Of a DNA stretch of 64,000 nucleotides, positions 23,070-55,197 are shown piece by piece; within the stretch, counting starts at the first letter, position 1; every line of letters starts with the position of its first letter. This DNA comes from Planctomycetaceae bacterium (GTDB lineage: Bacteria > Planctomycetota > Phycisphaerae > SM23-33), in the NCBI GenBank assembly GCA_039680605.1, contig JBDKTA010000050.1, positions 62,001-126,000 of the forward strand. Direction: 5' to 3'. The notes under the pieces were generated by a model. It made no database searches. It was not told the DNA's origin and was given only the letters and a program-made list of their open reading frames with translations. Both the position numbers and the translations under genes were made by a program.

Positions 23070-24346
23070 GTCGCGGCGCCTCCCAGCGCCGTCTCGGCAG
23101 CGCCGCGCCCGACAGGGCAGTACTTCAGGCAGCGTCCGCACGCGAGGCACAGTGCCTTGTCGGCTTCATAGGTGGTGCGGGTTGTGCGGCGACAGAGGCT
23201 CACGAGCTTGCCGCCGACAGTCAACCCCATGAACGCGCCCAGGAGCGTCGAGCCCAGCAGGAACTTTTCCCGCAGAGCGGCGGCGTCTTTTTGCAGGTCC
23301 TTGACCGGGCGTGCAGTCGCCCGGAAGGCGTCGCTGGCTTCGGTCGTGCCGGCCGCGGCGCCGGAGGCCTCGGCGTCAAGCTGTTCGGCCAGGCGCACGG
23401 TGGCATCGAGACGCGCCAGCGTTGGGGCCAATAGCTTACCGCCCCAGGCGCCGGCGGCGACGAGCACGGGCAGCAGCACGAGCGTGGCTGCCAGCGCGCC
23501 GCGGCCCTGATGTCGCGGGACGGGGCGACCGCTGTTGGGCGTTTGGATTGCCCCGACGGGGCAAGCGTCTTCGCACAGGCGGCAGTTGACGCATTGCGTA
23601 GGAGCGATCTTCACGCGGCGCTGGCTGAATCGCGACGCCCAACTCAGCATCAACCCATAGGGGCAAAGCCAGCGGCAGTACGGGCGGGCGATGATCGTGC
23701 CGATGGCCAGAAGCGACAGGCCCGCGATGACGATCGTCAGGGGCCCGGCCAGGCGGAACAGACCCAGGAACGGGTCGTATTCGCAGATCAGGTACGCGCT
23801 GCCGGTGGCGGCCGCCAGCACCGCAAGGCCCAGGTACGCGTAGGGCAGCAGGCGCAGCGAGCCATCGAGCCACGAGGGGACGCGAAGCGGATGGATTACC
23901 ACCAGGTCCTGGATGGCGCCCAGGGGGCACACGCCGGCGCAGAAGGCGCGTCCGACGAAGATCGCCACGATCAGCGGCAGCAGGAAGACGACCACGACCA
24001 GCACGGGCAGGACCGCCCCCCCGCCCAGCGCTTGTGCGACGTTCTGCACCGCTCCGACGGGGCAGAGGCACCCGCCGTAAAACCAGCCGAAATACCCCAG
24101 CGACACGATCGCCAGCACGACGATCGCGACGCGGCTGCGCAGGACGTGAACGAACAGCGCCGCCAATGCCAGTGCGACCGCCAAGGCGCCGATGTAGACC
24201 ATGTCTGCCACCACGCTGCGCGGCGCGGGGGTAGTGGTTGTGGGCAGAACGTGGTTGGTGAACTCCGGCGGCGGGAACCGCTCGGCGCCCAGCGCCGCAG
24301 CCGTAAGGACCAGCACCAACGCAATCGTCGGCAGCGAACGCTTCAC
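23066..24346 (-). CDS. NapH/NosR-type polytopic membrane Fe-S protein
   Basis: 426 residues starting GTG 24346 behind AAAGGAGT. A signal-like N-terminus (LPTIALVLVLTAAALGA) is followed by several transmembrane helices bearing paired Cys motifs: CLCPVGAVQN, FCAGVCPLGAIQD and YCRWLCPYGLML, as in the NapH/NosR/CcoG group. A cytoplasm-type ferredoxin segment (CVNCRLCEDACPVG) and a C-terminal CLACGRCLKYCPVG add two more cluster sites. Known relatives carry electrons through the membrane to periplasmic partners. GTGA overlap (24343-24346) with the upstream gene and ATGA overlap with the downstream one. The N-terminal open frame upstream of 24346 is antisense-like and rejected. Confidence 0.85.
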   Translation of the reverse strand: MKRSLPTIALVLVLTAAALGAERFPPPEFTNHVLPTTTTPAPRSVVADMVYIGALAVALALAALFVHVLRSRVAIVVLAIVSLGYFGWFYGGCLCPVGAVQNVAQALGGGAVLPVLVVVVFLLPLIVAIFVGRAFCAGVCPLGAIQDLVVIHPLRVPSWLDGSLRLLPYAYLGLAVLAAATGSAYLICEYDPFLGLFRLAGPLTIVIAGLSLLAIGTIIARPYCRWLCPYGLMLSWASRFSQRRVKIAPTQCVNCRLCEDACPVGAIQTPNSGRPVPRHQGRGALAATLVLLPVLVAAGAWGGKLLAPTLARLDATVRLAEQLDAEASGAAAGTTEASDAFRATARPVKDLQKDAAALREKFLLGSTLLGAFMGLTVGGKLVSLCRRTTRTTYEADKALCLACGRCLKYCPVGRGAAETALGGAAT

Positions 24347-24954
24347 TGGGGCGACTCCTTTGCGTTCTCGGAGCGATCCTTGAGCAGGTACGGGTGTGCG
24401 GCGCTGACGCGGCGGTAGGCGCCGGCCGGGCAGGCGGCGGCGATGGCGCACTGGTTGCAGTTGAGGCACAGGTCGTGGCGCACCTGCATGAACAGCGACC
24501 CGTTGCCGAAGGCCGCGCAACCCTTGACGCACTTGCCGCAGCCGATGCAGAGCTTCTCGTCGATGATGTACTCGTAATAAGGATCTTCGATGTAGCTGCG
24601 CTGGATGGCCCCGGTGGGGCAGAGCTGGTTTTCGGCGGCCGTGGTGAGATCGTACGGATCGGGCGGGAAGTACCCGGTGCATAGTTCGCAGTAGCCGCAC
24701 ATCGCGTAGGCGTGTACGCACTTGACGGCAGAGGGCGTCAGCACGCAGGCAGTGGCGCACCGCCCGCACTGGATGCACTTGTGTGGGTCGAGCTGCCAGA
24801 CCTCGCGCTGGGCCGTGGTCGATGCGGCGGCCGGGCCGCCGGCCCAACGCCCGATCGACGCCACGGCCGCCCCCAGCCCGACGGCGCCGGCGATGCGCAC
24901 GATCATGCCCAGCGCGCCGCGGCGGGTGGGCTGCCTTCCGGAAGGGGCACTCAC
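24343..24954 (-). CDS. Tat-type exported polyferredoxin
   Basis: 203 residues starting GTG 24954. The N-terminus has a twin-arginine-like signal (TRRGALGMIVRIAGAVGLGA). The mature part holds four Cys-rich ferredoxin motifs (CIQCGRCATAC, CGYCELC, CIGCGKCVKGC, CLNCNQCAIAAACP), similar to NapG/HybA-type proteins that relay electrons outside the membrane. It is coupled by GTGA overlaps at both ends (24343-24346 and 24951-24954). Placement directly before the NapH-like gene mirrors NapG-NapH pairing. The Tat assignment is inferred from the RR motif and hydrophobic stretch. Confidence 0.82.
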   Translation of the reverse strand: MSAPSGRQPTRRGALGMIVRIAGAVGLGAAVASIGRWAGGPAAASTTAQREVWQLDPHKCIQCGRCATACVLTPSAVKCVHAYAMCGYCELCTGYFPPDPYDLTTAAENQLCPTGAIQRSYIEDPYYEYIIDEKLCIGCGKCVKGCAAFGNGSLFMQVRHDLCLNCNQCAIAAACPAGAYRRVSAAHPYLLKDRSENAKESPQ

Positions 24955-25325
24955 GGTTTCACCCCCGCCTGCTTGGCCGACATCGCTGCCGGCAGAGCGC
25001 AGGTCTGAAATGCGCCGCAGCCGCGGCAGAGACCGCGGCTGGTGCATGACTGATTTTTCAACGGACCTTCGCCGCCTTTGCGAAGGAGGCTCAGTGCCGC
25101 GCCACCGGCGGCCAAGCCCGCCGCCGCGGCGACTCGGGCGAGTATCCCGAAGAACCCGCGGCGCGTGACGTTCGGGGACACGCTCAACGGAGTTGTGCGT
25201 GGCACCCCGTCGCGTAGCAAGGGCGTCTCGCCCGTGAGTGGCATGGGCGTCTCGCCCATGCTCTTGCTTTGTGGCATGGGCGTCTCGCCCATGCTCCCCG
25301 AACCTTTGTGGTTGTTATCAGCCAT
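24951..25325 (-). CDS. Small Tat-type four-Cys protein with repeat-derived insertion
   Basis: 124 residues. ATG 25325 follows GGAGG and overlaps the upstream NHL gene by 8 bp. Residues about 8-51 are translated repeat DNA (MGETPMP twice, then TGETPLL). They are followed at once by a twin-arginine signal (TRRGFFGILARVAAAAGLAAG, RR at 55-56). The repeat has therefore lengthened the n-region of a signal peptide without breaking the frame. The mature part is short and ends in C-x5-C-x2-C-x5-C (CTSRGLCRGCGAFQTC), which could hold one cluster. The family is unknown; the context is an Fe-S envelope module. Confidence 0.75.
   Translation of the reverse strand: MADNNHKGSGSMGETPMPQSKSMGETPMPLTGETPLLRDGVPRTTPLSVSPNVTRRGFFGILARVAAAAGLAAGGAALSLLRKGGEGPLKNQSCTSRGLCRGCGAFQTCALPAAMSAKQAGVKP
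25175..25310. repeat. GGGCGTCTCGCCC palindrome cluster inside a coding sequence
   Basis: Three palindromes (25221-25233, 25241-25261 and 25274-25294; core GGGCGTCTCGCCC, the last two flanked by GCAT/ATGC) sit beside a 33-bp unit (25175-25207) that recurs with two mismatches at 55165-55197. All of it is translated in frame in the small Tat protein. Confidence 0.85.
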
Positions 25326-26373
25326 GCTTTGCCTCCGCAGGCTTTGGCACAAAGACGCGCACTTGTCGTGTGCATGGATCAAGCACGTAGAGCGTATCGT
25401 CGGGCGCTGCCGCGACGGACAGGCCGCCGTACGTGCATCCGCCCGTGCCGGCCGCACAGATCGTGTCGTGCTCGGCAAATTGATCAGGCCCGGCCACGAC
25501 GCCCTGGAACTTGCCCTCGGCGTCGTAGACCTTGATGCGCGTGATGCCCTTCTCGACGGTCACGAAGCGCCCGCCGCTGATCATCGCCAAGGCGATCGGA
25601 TTGCAGCAGCCGCAGAACTTGTCGATGGCGGTGCCATGCATTCCCCAAGACAGTTCGAAGCGTCCGTCGAAGGTGTACGCCTCGACACGGTGCTTGCCCG
25701 GGTTGGACACGCGCAGCAGCCCGTCCGACGTCACGGCCAGCGGCATGTACGGGCTGGGCACGACAAGCCCCTCGCAGCCTTTGGCCGCATCCTTGCGGCC
25801 GATCTCGTTGATCAGCTTGCCCGCGCGGTCATATCGCAGCACGACGCGGTTGCCCGCGTCGGCGACAAAGACGTTGTCGCCACTGACGGCGATGGCGGCG
25901 AAGCGGGCCTTGTCGCCGCGGCTGGGCCAGGGTTTCTGCCATTTCGACAAATCCGTGAGGACGGCGATGCGATCCTTGAACCCCAAGAAAAGCGTCTTTT
26001 CGCTCTCAGCCGCGCACATCGGCGCACCCGGCGGGCAATTGATCTCGTAAGGCTGGTCGCCGTAAAGGGAGTACGGAAGGCGGATGATCTGGTCGCCGAC
26101 GACATAGACGCCCCCGGATCCTCCTATCGCGATACCGCGCGGCTCCTTCAGCTTCGTGGCAATCCCTCTTGTGACCTCCTCTCTATACAGAATGGGCGCG
26201 CCTTGAGTTCCCTGGTAGGGCGAGAGGTCGTAGCGGTGCTCGGCGGGGGGCTGGTCCTTATTGGCGACGTAGCGGTAGACGGAGTATCCCGCCGCGCCGG
26301 CGGCCACGGCGCCCGCGGCCCCGAGCAGCAACTCGCGGCGCGTCTTTTTGCCGTCTTTGTTTTCGTCAGCCAT
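25318..26373 (-). CDS. Exported NHL-repeat beta-propeller protein
   Basis: 351 residues. Tat-like N-terminus (KKTRRELLLGAAGAVAAGAAG) then NHL/SMP-30-like blades: EPRGIAIGGSGGVYVVGD, ARFAAIAVSGDNVFVADAG with NRVVLRYD, and PDDTLYVLD near the end. A Cys pair, FCGCCNP (about 280), and other Cys residues are unusual for a plain propeller and might bind a metal. ATG 26373 follows GAGG; the upstream open frame is an inverted-repeat element. It overlaps the next gene by 8 bp. Function unknown; likely an envelope partner of the adjacent Fe-S proteins. Confidence 0.8.
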   Translation of the reverse strand: MADENKDGKKTRRELLLGAAGAVAAGAAGYSVYRYVANKDQPPAEHRYDLSPYQGTQGAPILYREEVTRGIATKLKEPRGIAIGGSGGVYVVGDQIIRLPYSLYGDQPYEINCPPGAPMCAAESEKTLFLGFKDRIAVLTDLSKWQKPWPSRGDKARFAAIAVSGDNVFVADAGNRVVLRYDRAGKLINEIGRKDAAKGCEGLVVPSPYMPLAVTSDGLLRVSNPGKHRVEAYTFDGRFELSWGMHGTAIDKFCGCCNPIALAMISGGRFVTVEKGITRIKVYDAEGKFQGVVAGPDQFAEHDTICAAGTGGCTYGGLSVAAAPDDTLYVLDPCTRQVRVFVPKPAEAKHG

Positions 26374-26391: not shown

Positions 26392-26478
26392 GGGTGCCAT
26401 GGCGGCCGTTTCTCTGCCACCATGTCCCTCATCGTCATCCGCAAGCATGGCGGCTGGACAACGGCCGCCATGGCACCC
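26392..26478. repeat. 18-bp perfect inverted repeat, GGGTGCCATGGCGGC family
   Basis: Arms at 26392-26409 and 26461-26478 are perfect complements over 18 bp, with a 51-nt spacer that holds a further CATGGCGGC copy. It fills the gap between two propeller genes. Related shorter copies are at 37073-37099 and 40607-40642. Confidence 0.85.
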
Positions 26479-27914: not shown

Positions 27915-30900
27915 TCATTCCTCTCTCAGCGCGTCAATGAGCCGCCCGCGCAGCGCCAGTCTCGCCGCCAGCAGGGTCGAGGCTGCGCCGACGAGAACGA
28001 CCCCGCCCAATACCGCTGACAGCAGGGCGACGGGCACATGCGGATCCATGAAGCGGGACTGGGGGATCACGACCATCGCAGCCGCCGCCAGGCCGATCAC
28101 CAGTCCCATCGCCAGCAGTGCCAGGTGCTCGGTCAGCACCATCGCGACGATGCGCCCGCGGGTGAAGCCGACCGCGCGGAGGATCGCCAACTCGCTGCGG
28201 CGCTCGAGCACGTTTCGCATCAGAACCAGCCCCAGGCCGACACCGCCCAGCACCAGCCCCAGCCCGCCCAGCGCCTGGAAGATCGCCAGGTACGTGTTCT
28301 GCACCGAGTTGAGCCGGGCGAGCAACTCATCCGTCGGTCGCAATTCCAGACCGTAGTCTTGATAGGCCTCAGACAGCTTGGATTCTACCGCGGCGCGATC
28401 GGCGGCTGGCGTATCGATCAGGAAGGATCGATATCCGCTTTCGGAGGAAAAGTGCCGCACGAAGTGCTTCTCAGAAATGATCAGCGAGCCCTGCAGGATG
28501 GAATTCCGCAGTGAACCGACGAGACGGATCTTCAGAGGTTTGCCCCGGTCGTCGGTGATCGCGATCGTCTGCCCGACGGCTGAGTGCAGCGCGTACGTGA
28601 TCGTGTTCTGATCCGCAACAGCGGGAACGGTGTCGGCGGCGATATCGGCATCGAGCATCATCCACCGTCCATCCGTCGAGGCGAAGCGGAACCGGTGGGT
28701 GCTTTCCAATGCGGCTGTGTCCACGCCCAGAATGCGGGGACGCTGCGGGGCGTTGAGGTTCAAGCATGTTGCATCGTCGCCATCGTGAAGCCTCAACGGG
28801 ACGATAGAAGTGTGCTGCTCAACCTCGTCGGCGGGCAACGCCGCTTTGGCGGATGGGATCGGAACTGCCGATTCGCCGATCAGGGCGTAGCCGCCGGTGC
28901 CGGAACTGCGGCTGTCGGAGGGCTGGCCGTCCTGGCGAAACACGCTGACCACGGCGATAAGAAAGACCGCGCAGGCCAGCAGGGCGACGGTAGCGATGTT
29001 GCGACCGCAGCGGCCCAGAAGATATCGCACGGTCAACCGCTGCACCGAAAACGCGCTGCCCGCGCGATGGGGGAGCGACCATCGCCGCCTGCGAGGCGCG
29101 GCGCGATGGCCGCTGAGCAACTGCTGGACCGGGCGCCCGCTCAGGCGACGGAGGGTGGCGTACATCGCGATGATCGCCGCGACGGCGGCCAACGCCGCGC
29201 CTGCCGCTAGCGACACGGGCATCACATGCAGGTCAACCTGTGCTCCGGCCACGGCGGCTGACCAGATCGTCGACAACCCGCGCAGGATCAGCCATGCATA
29301 GCCGATCCCGAGAATAACGCCCAGCGAGCCGCCGGTCATCGCCAGCAGCAGGCCTTCGGCCATCAGCAGCCGCCGGATGGCTCCGGCCGTGAATCCCGTG
29401 GCCTTCAGGATTCCGATCTGCTCGCTGCGCTGAGTGACGCCCAGCGAGAAGACCAGTGCCGTCAGCAGCAGCGCTGAGGCGATGACGAAAAAGCTCAAGC
29501 CGATGAACAGGCCGGAGAAATCGTTCGCGCCTTTGGCCGCAGCTAATGCCTGCTCCCGCACGTCCTGGGCAACGATGCCCAGATACTTCGGCAGCGGCGC
29601 GGCCGTAGCACGGGCGTCTCGCCCGTGGTCCCTGTCTTGCTTTTTATGCATGGGCGGGACGCCCATGCGACTCACGGGCGAGACGCCCGTGCTACTGGGG
29701 ACGCCCGTGCCAGTGAAACGTACGGCAGTCAAGTTGCCGTAGCGGTTGGCCCACATGCTTTGGGCGGCGGCGAGGGTGACGAAGGCCTTAGGGGTGCCAC
29801 GGTACTGCTTCCAGTACTGCTCGTCCTTGGGGCGGATCTTGTTCAGATTGATGTAGGACCCGGCTTTCCAGTCGCGGCAGTTTTCCGCATCGGCCAGGCC
29901 GGGGAAGTCCGGCATGAGCGTCGCATCGGCGGCCAGGCCTTCGATCGGCACGACGGCCGCGATCGTGAACGTGCGGCTGGTTTCGCTCAGCCGCCCGGTC
30001 TCGCCCATCACGTAGTACTTGAGCGTCAGCGTGTCGCCAGCCTTGGCCGCCAGATCCTCCGCCAGCCAGCCGTTGATGACGATCTGGTCATCGTTTGCGG
30101 GCGAGACGCCCGTGCTACTGGGGGCGCCGATGCCGCTGACCATGGAATATGGCGTCGCCTTGTCGCCCACGCGCAATTCGTTGACGAAATATGTCAGCAC
30201 CCCCGTAGCCGCGGGCGAGTTGCCAATCGCCGCTTGCACCTCCGGCTGCGAGAGAAAGACCGCCTCACTGCGCAGCTCCACCTCCTTGCCGCCGGGGACA
30301 GCGACGATCTTCAGGCCCGCATCCTCCAGGCTGTAGGCCTTGTCCAACGCGCGTTGGACCGCATCTCGCGGTGCGTCGGACACAATCAGATTCGCCCGGT
30401 CCGGCCGCTCGAGTTGGCGGGCCAGCATCTCGCGCGAGACGAAGATGTTTTGCGGCGGAGTCGGGTTTGCCCGCAGGCTGAAATTGCCCCAGGGGGTGTC
30501 TGGCGCCACGGCGGCCACCTCTACAGCCAGCGCCGCGACGTTAGACCCTGTGTCGGCCAATGGTGCATCGGCGCCCAGAACCGACGGTCGGGCGATCCGC
30601 AGCACGACGCGGTCGCCGGCGGCGATGCCCAACTGCTGCGCCAGAGTGACATTGACGATGGCGCCGTCGGCAAAGCGATCGGCCGGGGCGTTGCACTGGC
30701 GCCAGGTCCGGATGTCCACGCCCAGCACCTGGACGTTGTTGGCTCGGGCCTTGGCTTCGCGGGCGGTTGCAGAGCCACGTGCCTGTACCCACGCCGCCGC
30801 ATGCATGTCGCCGGCGGCATTCATGCGATCGTCCAGTGTCGTAGTGAACATCCTCTGCGGACTGTCCACCGCCGCCTGCACGCCGCCCAGGCGCTCCAGG

Positions 30901-31049
30901 GCACGAGTGCGCAGCGTGCCGCGCACGCTGTCGCCGACGAGCAATGCGCCAACAAGCACCGCCGACGCCACGGCCGTGGCGAGTGCCACTGCGCCGCTGG
31001 TCCAGCGGTAATGTCGCAGGCTGCAGATTATGAATCTGGTCTTGGTCAC
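27915..31049 (-). CDS. FtsX/LolC-type ABC transporter permease, double-module
   Basis: 1044 residues from GTG 31049 (MTKTRFIICSLRHYRW). An N-terminal helix is followed by a large MacB-like extracytoplasmic domain and an FtsX core (about 490-620), then a second hydrophobic/extracytoplasmic half and a C-terminal FtsX core (about 920-1044, LGLVLGGVGLGLVLMRNVLE). Such permeases work with LolD-type ATPases to extract lipoproteins or move large molecules across the envelope. Two repeat-derived in-frame insertions are visible at about residues 307-318 and 445-481. The start is uncertain because only a weak ribosome-binding site exists and repeats lie upstream. Confidence 0.85.
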   Translation of the reverse strand: MTKTRFIICSLRHYRWTSGAVALATAVASAVLVGALLVGDSVRGTLRTRALERLGGVQAAVDSPQRMFTTTLDDRMNAAGDMHAAAWVQARGSATAREAKARANNVQVLGVDIRTWRQCNAPADRFADGAIVNVTLAQQLGIAAGDRVVLRIARPSVLGADAPLADTGSNVAALAVEVAAVAPDTPWGNFSLRANPTPPQNIFVSREMLARQLERPDRANLIVSDAPRDAVQRALDKAYSLEDAGLKIVAVPGGKEVELRSEAVFLSQPEVQAAIGNSPAATGVLTYFVNELRVGDKATPYSMVSGIGAPSSTGVSPANDDQIVINGWLAEDLAAKAGDTLTLKYYVMGETGRLSETSRTFTIAAVVPIEGLAADATLMPDFPGLADAENCRDWKAGSYINLNKIRPKDEQYWKQYRGTPKAFVTLAAAQSMWANRYGNLTAVRFTGTGVPSSTGVSPVSRMGVPPMHKKQDRDHGRDARATAAPLPKYLGIVAQDVREQALAAAKGANDFSGLFIGLSFFVIASALLLTALVFSLGVTQRSEQIGILKATGFTAGAIRRLLMAEGLLLAMTGGSLGVILGIGYAWLILRGLSTIWSAAVAGAQVDLHVMPVSLAAGAALAAVAAIIAMYATLRRLSGRPVQQLLSGHRAAPRRRRWSLPHRAGSAFSVQRLTVRYLLGRCGRNIATVALLACAVFLIAVVSVFRQDGQPSDSRSSGTGGYALIGESAVPIPSAKAALPADEVEQHTSIVPLRLHDGDDATCLNLNAPQRPRILGVDTAALESTHRFRFASTDGRWMMLDADIAADTVPAVADQNTITYALHSAVGQTIAITDDRGKPLKIRLVGSLRNSILQGSLIISEKHFVRHFSSESGYRSFLIDTPAADRAAVESKLSEAYQDYGLELRPTDELLARLNSVQNTYLAIFQALGGLGLVLGGVGLGLVLMRNVLERRSELAILRAVGFTRGRIVAMVLTEHLALLAMGLVIGLAAAAMVVIPQSRFMDPHVPVALLSAVLGGVVLVGAASTLLAARLALRGRLIDALREE
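29607..29715. repeat. In-frame GGGCGTCTCGCCC-type cluster in the ABC permease
   Basis: Palindromes CACGGGCGTCTCGCCCGTG, CATGGGCGGGACGCCCATG (29649-29667) and CACGGGCGAGACGCCCGTG (from 29673) are joined to GCTACTGGGG. Read through on the minus strand they give the insert TGVPSSTGVSPVS ... MGVPPM ... GRDARAT, flanked by normal permease sequence. Confidence 0.85.
30098..30129. repeat. Single in-frame palindrome copy in the ABC permease
   Basis: GCGGGCGAGACGCCCGTG followed by CTACTGGGGG encodes GAPSSTGVSPAND in the extracytoplasmic domain. Same family as 29607-29715 but a separate insertion. Confidence 0.8.
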
Positions 31050-35717: not shown

Positions 35718-36659
35718 TTACCTTGCCAGACAGCCGCAGGCCAGCAGCCCGTAATAGAGGTACTCGACGTCGACCATCGCGTCGTCGCCCCATGTTGAGC
35801 GAAAGGCCCCGCTCTCGTGCCGGCAGGCAATGTAAACGAATTCGCGGCAGACTTGGCGCACGTCTGCCAACGAAGCGTTGGCCGACTTCAACGCATGCAA
35901 GGCGACCGCCGTCGAGAGCAGATCGGGCTGCGGCGCCCCTTCCCATGCGACGAAGCCTCTGTGACCGAAGTCTCCCTCGATGCGGCACTGACGGATCAGC
36001 CACTCCACATGCCGTCTCTCGGCGGGGCGGCCCAGGTGTCGCAGCACGATCATCGCCGCGGCCGTGGCGGGAACGTTGGCGATGGGAATCAAAGAGGAGT
36101 TGGTGAACCCGCCTTCGGCCGTCGCCAGTTGTTCCAGGGCTTGTGCGAGTTGATCGCTCTGAGGCAACGGCCGGCGCAGGTCCTGGTAAGCTCCCATCGC
36201 GAGAAACGCGTCATAGGCGCTGCCCTCGCGGCTGGCGGGGGTTTGGGCGTATCCACCGTCGGCGCTGCGGTATGACTCGATGCGTTTGAGGATATCGTCG
36301 GCCAGTCCCGGCGGCATCTGTGAGTGTTCCATCGCCGCCAGCGAAATCCAGCAGCGAGCCAGGCACGCCAGGTGGGTCAGGTCCAGGTTGGTCTTGCAGT
36401 ATTCCTCCAGGCATAGCCGGTGGCCGCCGGGGCTGTGCAACCCGAAGTACAGGTGCAGGTCCAGCGCTTCGAGGCACTGGTATCCGAACATCGTGTAGTA
36501 GAGATCGGAACTGGTTTGCCCGGCGCTGTTGGAGCCGCCGAAGCCGCCGTCGACGGTGCTGAACAGCGGGAGGAACCTCTTGACGGCCTCCATGCCGCTG
36601 CTGTCCAGGGCGGTGCAGCCGCGGCGCAGGGCGGCTTGGAGTTCATCGCGAATGGTCAT
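35718..36659 (-). CDS. Prenyltransferase/terpene-cyclase alpha-alpha toroid protein
   Basis: 313 residues from ATG 36659, which lies inside the end of the polyprenyl synthase gene (17-bp overlap). Repeats typical of the squalene-cyclase/protein prenyltransferase beta fold: STVDGGFGGSNSAG, SADGGYAQTP, TAEGGFTNSS and a last blade ending TWGDDAMVDVEYLYYGLLA. There is no D-x-D-D motif, and the zinc triad of protein prenyltransferases cannot be assigned with confidence. It may be a second cyclase domain, an accessory protein or a prenyl-binding subunit for the larger cyclase beside it. Confidence 0.72.
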   Translation of the reverse strand: MTIRDELQAALRRGCTALDSSGMEAVKRFLPLFSTVDGGFGGSNSAGQTSSDLYYTMFGYQCLEALDLHLYFGLHSPGGHRLCLEEYCKTNLDLTHLACLARCWISLAAMEHSQMPPGLADDILKRIESYRSADGGYAQTPASREGSAYDAFLAMGAYQDLRRPLPQSDQLAQALEQLATAEGGFTNSSLIPIANVPATAAAMIVLRHLGRPAERRHVEWLIRQCRIEGDFGHRGFVAWEGAPQPDLLSTAVALHALKSANASLADVRQVCREFVYIACRHESGAFRSTWGDDAMVDVEYLYYGLLACGCLAR

Positions 36660-38241
36660 CGCAGCAGCCCATGCGGCCGAGGTCGTTGAAGATGGCCGCC
36701 AGCACGCGGCGGCACAGGCCCTTGAGGGCGACGTTGGTGAGGCCGCCCAGGGCATCGATGGCTCGGCGCTTGAAGCCGCTCAGCAGTGCCTCGGCGGCGG
36801 CTCGCGGATCCTGGTCCGGTCGTTCGGCGGCCAGCGAGGGCAGGATGGACAGTCCGCCGTCGCTCTCATCGGCCAGGTCGTCGTGAATTTGATATGCCGC
36901 GCCCAGCGCCTGGCTGTACGAGGCCAGCGCTTTGAGCACGTCCTCGCCCGCGCCGCCATAGATGGCGCCCAGTTCCAAAGCGACCTGGAACGCCGGGGCG
37001 GTCTTCATGCGGTGGATTTCGAGGATGTCAGAGACCGGGAGCACGGGCGGGACGCCCGTGCTACGGGGGTGCCATGGCGGCTGTTTTTCAGCCGCCATGT
37101 TTGTCCAGGCCAGTTCGCGGCCTTGACCGAGGCACAGGTCGCGATGGCCGTTGCTTGCGGCCAACAGCATTGCGGCCATTCGCTCCGGCGCGGCGCCGCA
37201 CTGGGCGATGAGACGGTATCCCTGCCCCAGCAGCAGGTCGCCGACGTTGAGGGCGATCGGCACGCCGTGGCTCTGATGGAGCGTCTGTTCGCCGTAGCGG
37301 CTGGCGTCGGCGTCTTCGATGTCGTCGTGGATCAGCGAGGCCTTGTGGAAACACTCGACGGCCATCGCCAGCGTGTGAAGCTCTCCAGTCGCTTCGCCGC
37401 TTTGGCCGCTCAACGCCGCAGCGGCACAAACTGTCAGCAGCGGGCGCCATCGTTTGCCTGCCCGCGCCAGCCACGCCCGGGCGAGTTCGTCGGCCGGCCC
37501 GGCGACGTCGCCGAAGATGTCGTCGATCGCCTCGGGCGTGAACCAGCTCTCCACTTGTGTTCGCAGGGCCTGCAGATCGATGCATCCCCCGGCGTCGCTG
37601 CTGGCGTAGAGGGCTTCCCACAGCCAGTCTTCATCGAGAGAGGTATCGACGCACCCATCCTGCAGCAGCGGCAGGGCGATGCCCGGCACGGCGGCGGCTT
37701 CCATGTACGGATAGACGCTGCGAAGGGTCGCCAGGCAACTGACGCCGATGACGGCCTGCACCTGCCCCGACTGGATCAGCGACATCACTACCGGCGAGCC
37801 CTCGGCAACGAGCGTGACGTATCCGAGGCGCTGGGCTTCGGTTTCAAAATCGCCGATGGCGCATCCGCCGCAGCGGCGGCACGTCAAGCCGAGCGGATCG
37901 ACGTCGGCCTTGCAGGAGGGCGCAAGTCTAAGGCACTGGGGCAGCAGCAGCATCCGGCGGTTCATGGGGACCGCCGCTACGGTGGGGCGCCACAATTCAT
38001 TGCTGAGGATGACGGCGGCGAATTCTTCGAACTGGTGGGCAAGCCCCGCCTCGGTCAGGGCCGCACGGCCATGCCGCACGAGGGCGTCCAGCGGCAGCGG
38101 GGGCGTGAGGGCGCATCGGGCGGCGTAGTCGCGGCAGGCGGCGCGCACGTCCTGGCGCTGCCGGGCGGTTGGGGGAATGCCCGGGCCGGCGTCTCGCGCG
38201 GGTCGAAGGGTCCGGGGGTTATTCTGCAGCCGATCAGTCAT
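36643..38241 (-). CDS. DUF116-polyprenyl synthase fusion
   Basis: 532 residues. Residues about 75-215 form a DUF116-like Cys-rich domain (PQCLRLAPSC, then CRRCGGCAIGD, and GVSCLATL). Residues about 245-530 are a trans-isoprenyl diphosphate synthase with both aspartate-rich motifs, D306-D-I-E-D310 and D454-D-L-A-D458, plus AGKRWRPLL and GQGREL. This domain should elongate allylic diphosphates with isopentenyl diphosphate. Residues 381-402 are a repeat-derived insert (PPWHPRSTGVPPV) just before the KTA helix. ATG 38241 overlaps the radical SAM stop (ATGA). The Fe-S-like DUF116 domain fused to a synthase is unusual. Confidence 0.85.
   Translation of the reverse strand: MTDRLQNNPRTLRPARDAGPGIPPTARQRQDVRAACRDYAARCALTPPLPLDALVRHGRAALTEAGLAHQFEEFAAVILSNELWRPTVAAVPMNRRMLLLPQCLRLAPSCKADVDPLGLTCRRCGGCAIGDFETEAQRLGYVTLVAEGSPVVMSLIQSGQVQAVIGVSCLATLRSVYPYMEAAAVPGIALPLLQDGCVDTSLDEDWLWEALYASSDAGGCIDLQALRTQVESWFTPEAIDDIFGDVAGPADELARAWLARAGKRWRPLLTVCAAAALSGQSGEATGELHTLAMAVECFHKASLIHDDIEDADASRYGEQTLHQSHGVPIALNVGDLLLGQGYRLIAQCGAAPERMAAMLLAASNGHRDLCLGQGRELAWTNMAAEKQPPWHPRSTGVPPVLPVSDILEIHRMKTAPAFQVALELGAIYGGAGEDVLKALASYSQALGAAYQIHDDLADESDGGLSILPSLAAERPDQDPRAAAEALLSGFKRRAIDALGGLTNVALKGLCRRVLAAIFNDLGRMGCCDDHSR
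37039..37099. repeat. In-frame palindrome pair in the polyprenyl synthase gene
   Basis: GCACGGGCGGGACGCCCGTGC is followed directly by a hairpin with an 11-bp stem (CATGGCGGCTG, 5-nt loop, CAGCCGCCATG; 37073-37099). Two repeat families are therefore joined and translated as a 22-residue insert. Confidence 0.85.
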
Positions 38242-50521: not shown

Positions 50522-50575
50522 GGAGCATGGGCGGGACGCCCATACTCCTCACGTGCGAGACGCCCGTGCTACTCC
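50522..50575. repeat. GGGCGGGACGCCC-type palindromes at the acyl-CoA dehydrogenase 3' end
   Basis: GGAGCATGGGCGGGACGCCC (50522-50541) continues into CATACTCC; a second copy (50550-50575) contains CGAGACGCCCGTGCTACTCC. The second copy overlaps the stop codon (TAG, 50569-50571), so the repeat supplies the end of the gene. Confidence 0.85.
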
Positions 50576-54903: not shown

Positions 54904-55092
54904 GTCATCGACTCCTGTCTTGTGGGCTGCGGCACGCAGGCGTGAACCGCAGGCCGCCGCATAGCCAAGTGGCCCGCCGGGGCGGGCCGATCGTTCAGAA
55001 CGTACGGGGGCAAGATATTACGGGGCGCTTCGGGGCAAGTCAAGCGCCAAAAATAAGGCGTGAAGGCGGGGCATGGATGTCGCGGTTGTGTG

Positions 55093-55197
55093 GCATGGGC
55101 GTCTCGCCCATGCTCCCGGTGTGGCATGGGCGTCTCGCCCATGCTCCCCGGAACGTCACAGTCAGGGACACGCACAACGGAGTTGTGCCTGGCACCC
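55093..55197. repeat. GGGCGTCTCGCCC palindrome cluster upstream of an exported-protein gene
   Basis: Two palindromes (55093-55113 and 55124-55144) and a 33-bp unit (55165-55197, GGGACACGCACAACGG...) match the units inside the Tat protein gene at 25175-25310, but in a different order. The 455-bp gap (54904-55359) otherwise holds nothing recognised. Confidence 0.85.

Follow-up and report, generated by a model that had tools for sequence, protein, structure and literature searches.

The closest described systems are the GTAG-tagged REPs, which were reported in 2013 to occur in PVC hosts, to include members with GTGG tags and to have some copies that sit in-frame inside genes (PMC3733652). GTGG tags are carried, for example, by the GTAG-20 family of Opitutus terrae (PMC3733652). 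RAYTs have been described as separate, single-copy genes that are vertically inherited (PMC8049555), and a RAYT together with its REPs has been described as a REPtron (PMC6006769). In a current population model, a REPIN that is copied into a gene is assumed to destroy that gene (PMC8049555). REPs are extragenic by name; in the genome discussed here, a substantial share of the REP clusters lies in-frame in proteins.

The window (the whole stretch of 64,000 nucleotides that was analysed) carries a small minus-strand gene, the focal gene, whose product reads MADNNHKG-SGSMGETPMPQSKSMGETPMPLTGETPLLRD-GVPRTTPLSVSP-NVTRRGFFG..., with the RR pair at residues 55-56. Past the repeat block the protein reads NVTRRGFFGILARV.... 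The features of the locus are as follows:

24343..24906, minus strand: 4Fe-4S ferredoxin gene, downstream (Pfam Fer4 families; conserved neighbour).
24951..25325, minus strand: small RR-signal protein gene with a repeat-derived n-region (translation, 124 aa; syntenic orthologues).
25101..25169, minus strand: RR motif and hydrophobic stretch (VTRRGFFGILARVAAAAGLAAGG), common to orthologues.
25175..25206, plus strand: second palindromic repeat GGGACACGCTCAACGGAGTTGTGCGTGGCACC, encoding most of GVPRTTPLSVSP (29 copies in a 1.25 Mb genome sample, 11 of the 29 at most 150 bp from a REP; shuffled controls, 0).
25214..25236, plus strand: REP copy GTAGCAAGGGCGTCTCGCCCGTG, minus-strand reading TGETPLL (repeat search).
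25238..25260, plus strand: REP copy identical to GTGGCATGGGCGTCTCGCCCATG, minus-strand reading MGETPMP (repeat search).
25271..25293, plus strand: REP copy GTGGCATGGGCGTCTCGCCCATG, minus-strand reading MGETPMP (repeat search).
25318..26373, minus strand: NHL-repeat gene, upstream, its stop overlapping the focal start (Pfam NHL; conserved neighbour).
25332..25336, minus strand: Shine–Dalgarno sequence GGAGG (best match to AGGAGG, 5/6; spacing 6), serving the ATG at 25323-25325.

A further inverted repeat, GGGTGCCATGGCGG.../...CCGCCATGGCACCC, is located just 5′ of the start of the NHL gene, at 26392-26478 of the window, and a similar sequence is found at about 37070-37100.

The REP is a 23-nt palindrome, GTRGCAxGGGCGTCTCGCCCxTG, and its focal copies start at 25214, 25238 and 25271, with spacings of 24 and 33 bp. 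Together with the second palindromic repeat, the three REPs account for about 43 of the 54 residues ahead of the RR pair. The preliminary description had counted about 44 such residues (MGETPMP, MGETPMP, TGETPLL), which is close to this figure, and the second repeat, which it did not name, can now be added to the block. It had also held that the frame is kept, and the translation of 24951-25325 does run through the block to the RR. A search of the 5.23 Mb genome for exact copies of the REP core GGGCGTCTCGCCC gave 300, and the reversed control gave none. Near-matches to this core within the 64-kb window number 29, against 8 expected. A search of the 1.25 Mb sample for the 23-nt consensus with at most three mismatches, with five shuffled consensuses as controls, returned 155 places (shuffled consensuses, 0-2), of which 63 carry a GTAG tag and 57 a GTGG tag. 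A hairpin in the size range of this kind (about 20-40 nt) with the tag at one end, a high and dispersed copy number and a REP-flanked RAYT gene were all found, and the focal repeat is a GTAG-type REP, a known kind with a different stem sequence. A sister hairpin family, CGTGTCGCGGGCGTCTCGCCCGCGCGTGGCGAGGGCATCTT, has its core in common with the REP and other stems (G000:C4 and C9, e.g., C4:193129 and C9:85499).

Seventeen homologous loci in other genomes of the class place a small RR protein between the NHL gene and the ferredoxin gene, including L050, where the protein was seen in the orthologue comparison and was not re-found in the synteny tally. The preliminary description had proposed a search for an insert-free version, and an insert of this kind is absent from 16 of the 17 syntenic orthologues. 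Insert-free orthologues with a readable start begin about 8-20 residues ahead of the RR, with n-regions such as MKDNDRQLSRRGLF, MERKTENKDRREF and MQTSPDNSHELPPGASRRGLF. The focal protein minus its repeat block would be MADNNHKG-NVTRRGFF, which is of ordinary length (cf. the orthologue MKDNDRQLSRRGLF). This comparison rests on orthologous proteins, with no close relative showing the focal empty site at the nucleotide level, and the focal protein alone, used as a query against the genome contigs, gave no match. The focal signal is of the export type, and its Tat nature is suggested by the RR-plus-hydrophobic pattern common to the orthologues.

The choice of start codon bears on whether the block is translated at all. 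The repeat could instead be an untranslated leader, with translation beginning at GTG 25181 or a neighbouring codon and the REP array serving as a regulatory RNA hairpin. GTG and TTG codons are indeed present 6-14 residues before the RR, and it has been cautioned that many N-terminal REPs are misannotated leaders (PMC3733652). The preliminary description had likewise noted that a good start near the RR in this genome would point to a leader. No Shine–Dalgarno sequence was found for the later candidates (GTG 25205, TTG 25187 and GTG 25181), whereas ATG 25325 is preceded by GGAGG (spacing 6) and overlaps the stop of the upstream gene, to which it is coupled. Furthermore, no stop interrupts the frame along the roughly 130 bp of repeat, the candidate codons themselves lie inside the second repeat, and one orthologue, L051, shows the same pattern with another repeat family. 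A leader is unlikely on this evidence, and the focal block is very likely a translated in-frame insertion, as judged from sequence.

The L051 orthologue (genome G076) reads MNSTGNLNKNLLHNALPHRAPCGTAGLSGRVESRGEPRTAGQAGRATPGCETTPRRRALLE behind a GGAGG-ATG. Its insert, at about 1350-1530, is an inverted pair of an unrelated hairpin, GTGGCACGGCCGGCTTGTCCGGCCGTG, in the same n-region. The 17-nt core of this hairpin, GGCCGGCTTGTCCGGCC, occurs in 121 copies in G076 and 179 copies in G088 (reversed control, 0). It appears that this is an independent insertion into the same n-region as the focal one. Because two unrelated REP-like families have entered this n-region in-frame, the site seems to be a tolerant one. 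The in-frame retention and the unrelated insert in the n-region of a second lineage could also be read as signs that the extra residues were selected, either to tune Tat targeting or to bind a partner. Such a function is highly improbable given the absence of the insert from all but one of the orthologues, and the occurrence of the same repeat in unrelated proteins and in several frames argues against a sequence-specific role.

The extent to which REPs enter genes was assessed with a simple dicodon gene caller, a crude tool by which 83% of the 1.25 Mb sample is called coding. Inside genes, 15 of the 52 REP clusters are in-frame, with the sequence on either side scoring as coding in that frame, while the other 37 lie outside genes. 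REP clusters are thus rarer in genes than expected, as selection predicts, yet common there. Within the window, two genes besides the focal gene are also decorated with REPs, encoding an FtsX-type permease and a polyprenyl-synthetase-like protein. The remaining REP features of the window, given without strand and drawn from the repeat and gene calls, are:

29605..29695: REP cluster in-frame in the FtsX-type permease gene (27915-30944, minus strand).
30096..30118: one isolated REP, also in-frame in this permease gene.
37042..37064: REP in-frame in the polyprenyl-synthetase-like gene (36643-38241, minus strand).
50526..50572: pair of REPs, not within any called gene.
55090..55196: two REPs plus the second repeat, between genes, forming the same composite as in the focal gene.

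Elsewhere in the genome, the REP-decorated proteins identified from sequence include KsgA, TruB, an ABC exporter, a LarA-like enzyme, a GH3 enzyme and a U32 peptidase in which the unit QQEHGRDAHAT stands six times in tandem. Several reading frames of the repeat are used (MGETPMP, HGRDAHAT, TGVSPV and HGRLAHA), so none of these peptides is preferred. The translated motif HGRDARAT had no match in the literature searched. Two candidate coding adaptations were rejected: openness of the REP in all six frames as a selected property, as 29-37% of shuffled units are likewise open in all six, and a tandem spacing divisible by three, as these spacings also predominate where the REPs lie outside genes. 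The decorated TruB is located at G000:C43:6045-7004. Studies have reported that TruB also bears repeats, of unrelated sequence, in Rickettsia conorii and several Proteobacteria (PMC3733652), and the protein is a recurrent tolerant host for repeats.

There are 15 Y1_Tnp loci in the focal genome, and only one of them has these REPs on both sides, those on one flank being inverted relative to those on the other. This RAYT resides within a single 544-codon open frame (G000:C4:18782-20416; loci L070 and L140). Pfam assigns to the frame an ETF domain in two stretches plus Y1_Tnp, the two ends together making up the electron transfer flavoprotein beta subunit. In eight relatives etfB is without the insert and reads ...AIRKLG-FDLILCGERATDGDTG.... 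From its sequence context, the etfB-embedded RAYT is the likely cognate mobiliser of these REPs. A more distant etfB paralogue (45% identity) is present in the same genome, so the cell may not depend on the RAYT-fused etfB.

Among the 298 genomes of the class, 24 have close relatives of the etfB RAYT, and the open frames that contain these span 471-1381 codons, well beyond the length of a RAYT. When embedding is defined as at least 100 aa open upstream and at least 80 aa open downstream, 38 of the 80 related RAYT loci in named public genomes are embedded, a count that depends on open frames, with Pfam backing for 19 scanned ORFs and with most of the genomes metagenome-assembled. The remainder are largely separate genes. 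One embedded case, in G080, lies on a single 7.2 Mb contig, and a MetH with an in-frame Y1_Tnp domain is encoded by the cultured type strain Roseibacillus persicicus KCTC 12988 (L296:2098-5637). In valS the RAYT sits in-frame at one recurring site, ...FWYLRYPL[REP-RAYT-REP]YVTVATTRPETMLGD..., and in a DinG-like helicase at another. Pfam further identified LeuRS, AlaRS, MetH, IspG/GcpE, GH38 and type IIG and other restriction-modification proteins as hosts around the RAYT; the C-terminal part of ValS and DUF1156 were also read as hosts. Scans of the 19 embedded ORFs returned host domains and Y1_Tnp only, with no Hint/intein family. The linkers between RAYT and host protein are REP-encoded.

At least eight genomes (G020, G027, G038, G219, G294, G015, G030 and G143) yielded no ValS match other than the enlarged one, so the enzyme presumably works despite the insert. 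AlphaFold gave a poor model of the ValS-RAYT fragment from ten loci (mean pLDDT 54.6), in which the editing domain alone is confident, the insert lies between strands at 196-207 and 460-465, and confidence is low for the REP-encoded linkers. The model agrees with a loop insertion and proves little. No report of protein-embedded RAYTs, including a RAYT with valyl-tRNA synthetase or an intein, was found in the literature searched, whose coverage leaves out most subscription papers.

The related RAYTs show the HUH and Tyr motifs of a Y1 transposase core (Pfam Y1_Tnp), the catalytic H123, H125 and Y183 being conserved in at least 26 of 27, and have REP hairpins on both sides. Perfect stems of at least 8 bp occur within 150 bp of the embedded RAYTs in 27/38 cases upstream and 24/38 downstream, against 6/122 control windows. 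Genomes rich in the REP core make up 18 of the 24 with the RAYT versus 49 of the 274 without it (p about 1e-8, by a hand tally that ignores relatedness). Four genomes (G104, G122, G035 and G134) hold 123-363 REP core copies and gave no match in a RAYT search at 1e-30, and in some genomes with a RAYT this core is scarce; the pairing of RAYT and REP sequences is therefore not one to one. Mapped onto the RAYT tree, the hosts require 9 changes, against 14.0 when their labels are shuffled; the sites are clustered and several host-to-host moves are required. Distances of the ValS host and of its RAYT are moderately correlated (Mantel r 0.44, p 0.006), a pattern consistent with inheritance plus a move now and then. 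Purely vertical inheritance of the RAYT at one site is only partly supported by this correlation and the 9 host changes, and was set aside.

The repeats might also have spread without a transposase, through recombination or replication slippage, the REP-flanked RAYT in etfB being incidental. Tandem spacings of 24 and 33 bp, seen inside and outside genes, do suggest local duplication of units. To reach unrelated loci, however, the repeats must be copied to new places; a RAYT flanked by REPs is found repeatedly, across many genomes and hosts, and the presence of the RAYT accompanies REP number. This makes spread without a transposase unlikely.

A translated in-frame REP array, copied by a RAYT and filtered by selection, is with good confidence the best joint explanation of the locus. 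GTAG- and GTGG-tagged REP hairpins and the associated palindromic repeat would have been inserted in-frame between MADNNHKG and NVTRRGFF. The block would then be translated as about 43 extra residues, lengthening the n-region and leaving the start site, the RR motif and the mature part intact, and export would be unimpaired by the extra residues. The REPs are probably copied by the RAYT, a Y1 HUH transposase that would work on the hairpins while the DNA is single-stranded. Selection would remove most intragenic REPs, so that frame-keeping copies in tolerant places remain. A broader proposal, somewhat favoured by the evidence, is that this RAYT clade forms an in-frame, non-splicing domain of ValS, LeuRS, AlaRS, MetH, IspG, DinG, EtfB and restriction-modification enzymes. 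Joined by REP-encoded linkers and made together with its host, it would seed REP arrays that are translated in many other proteins of those genomes, the focal RR signal included.

The presumed mobiliser lies inside enzyme genes, several of which are essential in most bacteria, and would thereby gain host-driven expression and become costly to lose. A mobile element thus seems able to live inside proteins rather than destroy them. Mobile DNA may in this way add residues to loops, linkers and signal peptides. The persistence of RAYTs also becomes testable, as the embedded MetH-RAYT case is found in the cultured R. persicicus.

The preliminary description had likened the insert to Rickettsia palindromic elements. 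The likeness stands as regards in-frame translated palindromes in many proteins, TruB included; the focal REP is set apart by its tag and host, the two features compared, and the GTAG-tagged REPs, already known in-frame, are closer (PMC3733652). With these the focal family shares a short tagged hairpin, high copy number, dimers and clusters, and some in-frame copies in PVC genes. It differs in its stem, in the lengthened n-region of an RR signal and in a REP-flanked RAYT that is in-frame in a host gene. The RAYT/TnpA_REP systems, or REPtrons, likewise consist of a Y1 HUH transposase flanked by REP hairpins (PMC6006769, PMC8049555). There the transposases are described as separate single-copy genes, whereas here they are in-frame in enzyme genes at 38 of the 80 related loci. 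Inteins and homing endonucleases offer a parallel in that a mobile enzyme domain lies in-frame in housekeeping genes, with one recurring site (valS). Unlike inteins, the present case has no splicing domain in the scanned hosts, flanking peptides that are REP-encoded and a Y1 transposase as its enzyme. The focal in-frame REP insert is a well-supported member of a class known since 2013 (PMC3733652), and the embedded RAYT is the unexpected part.
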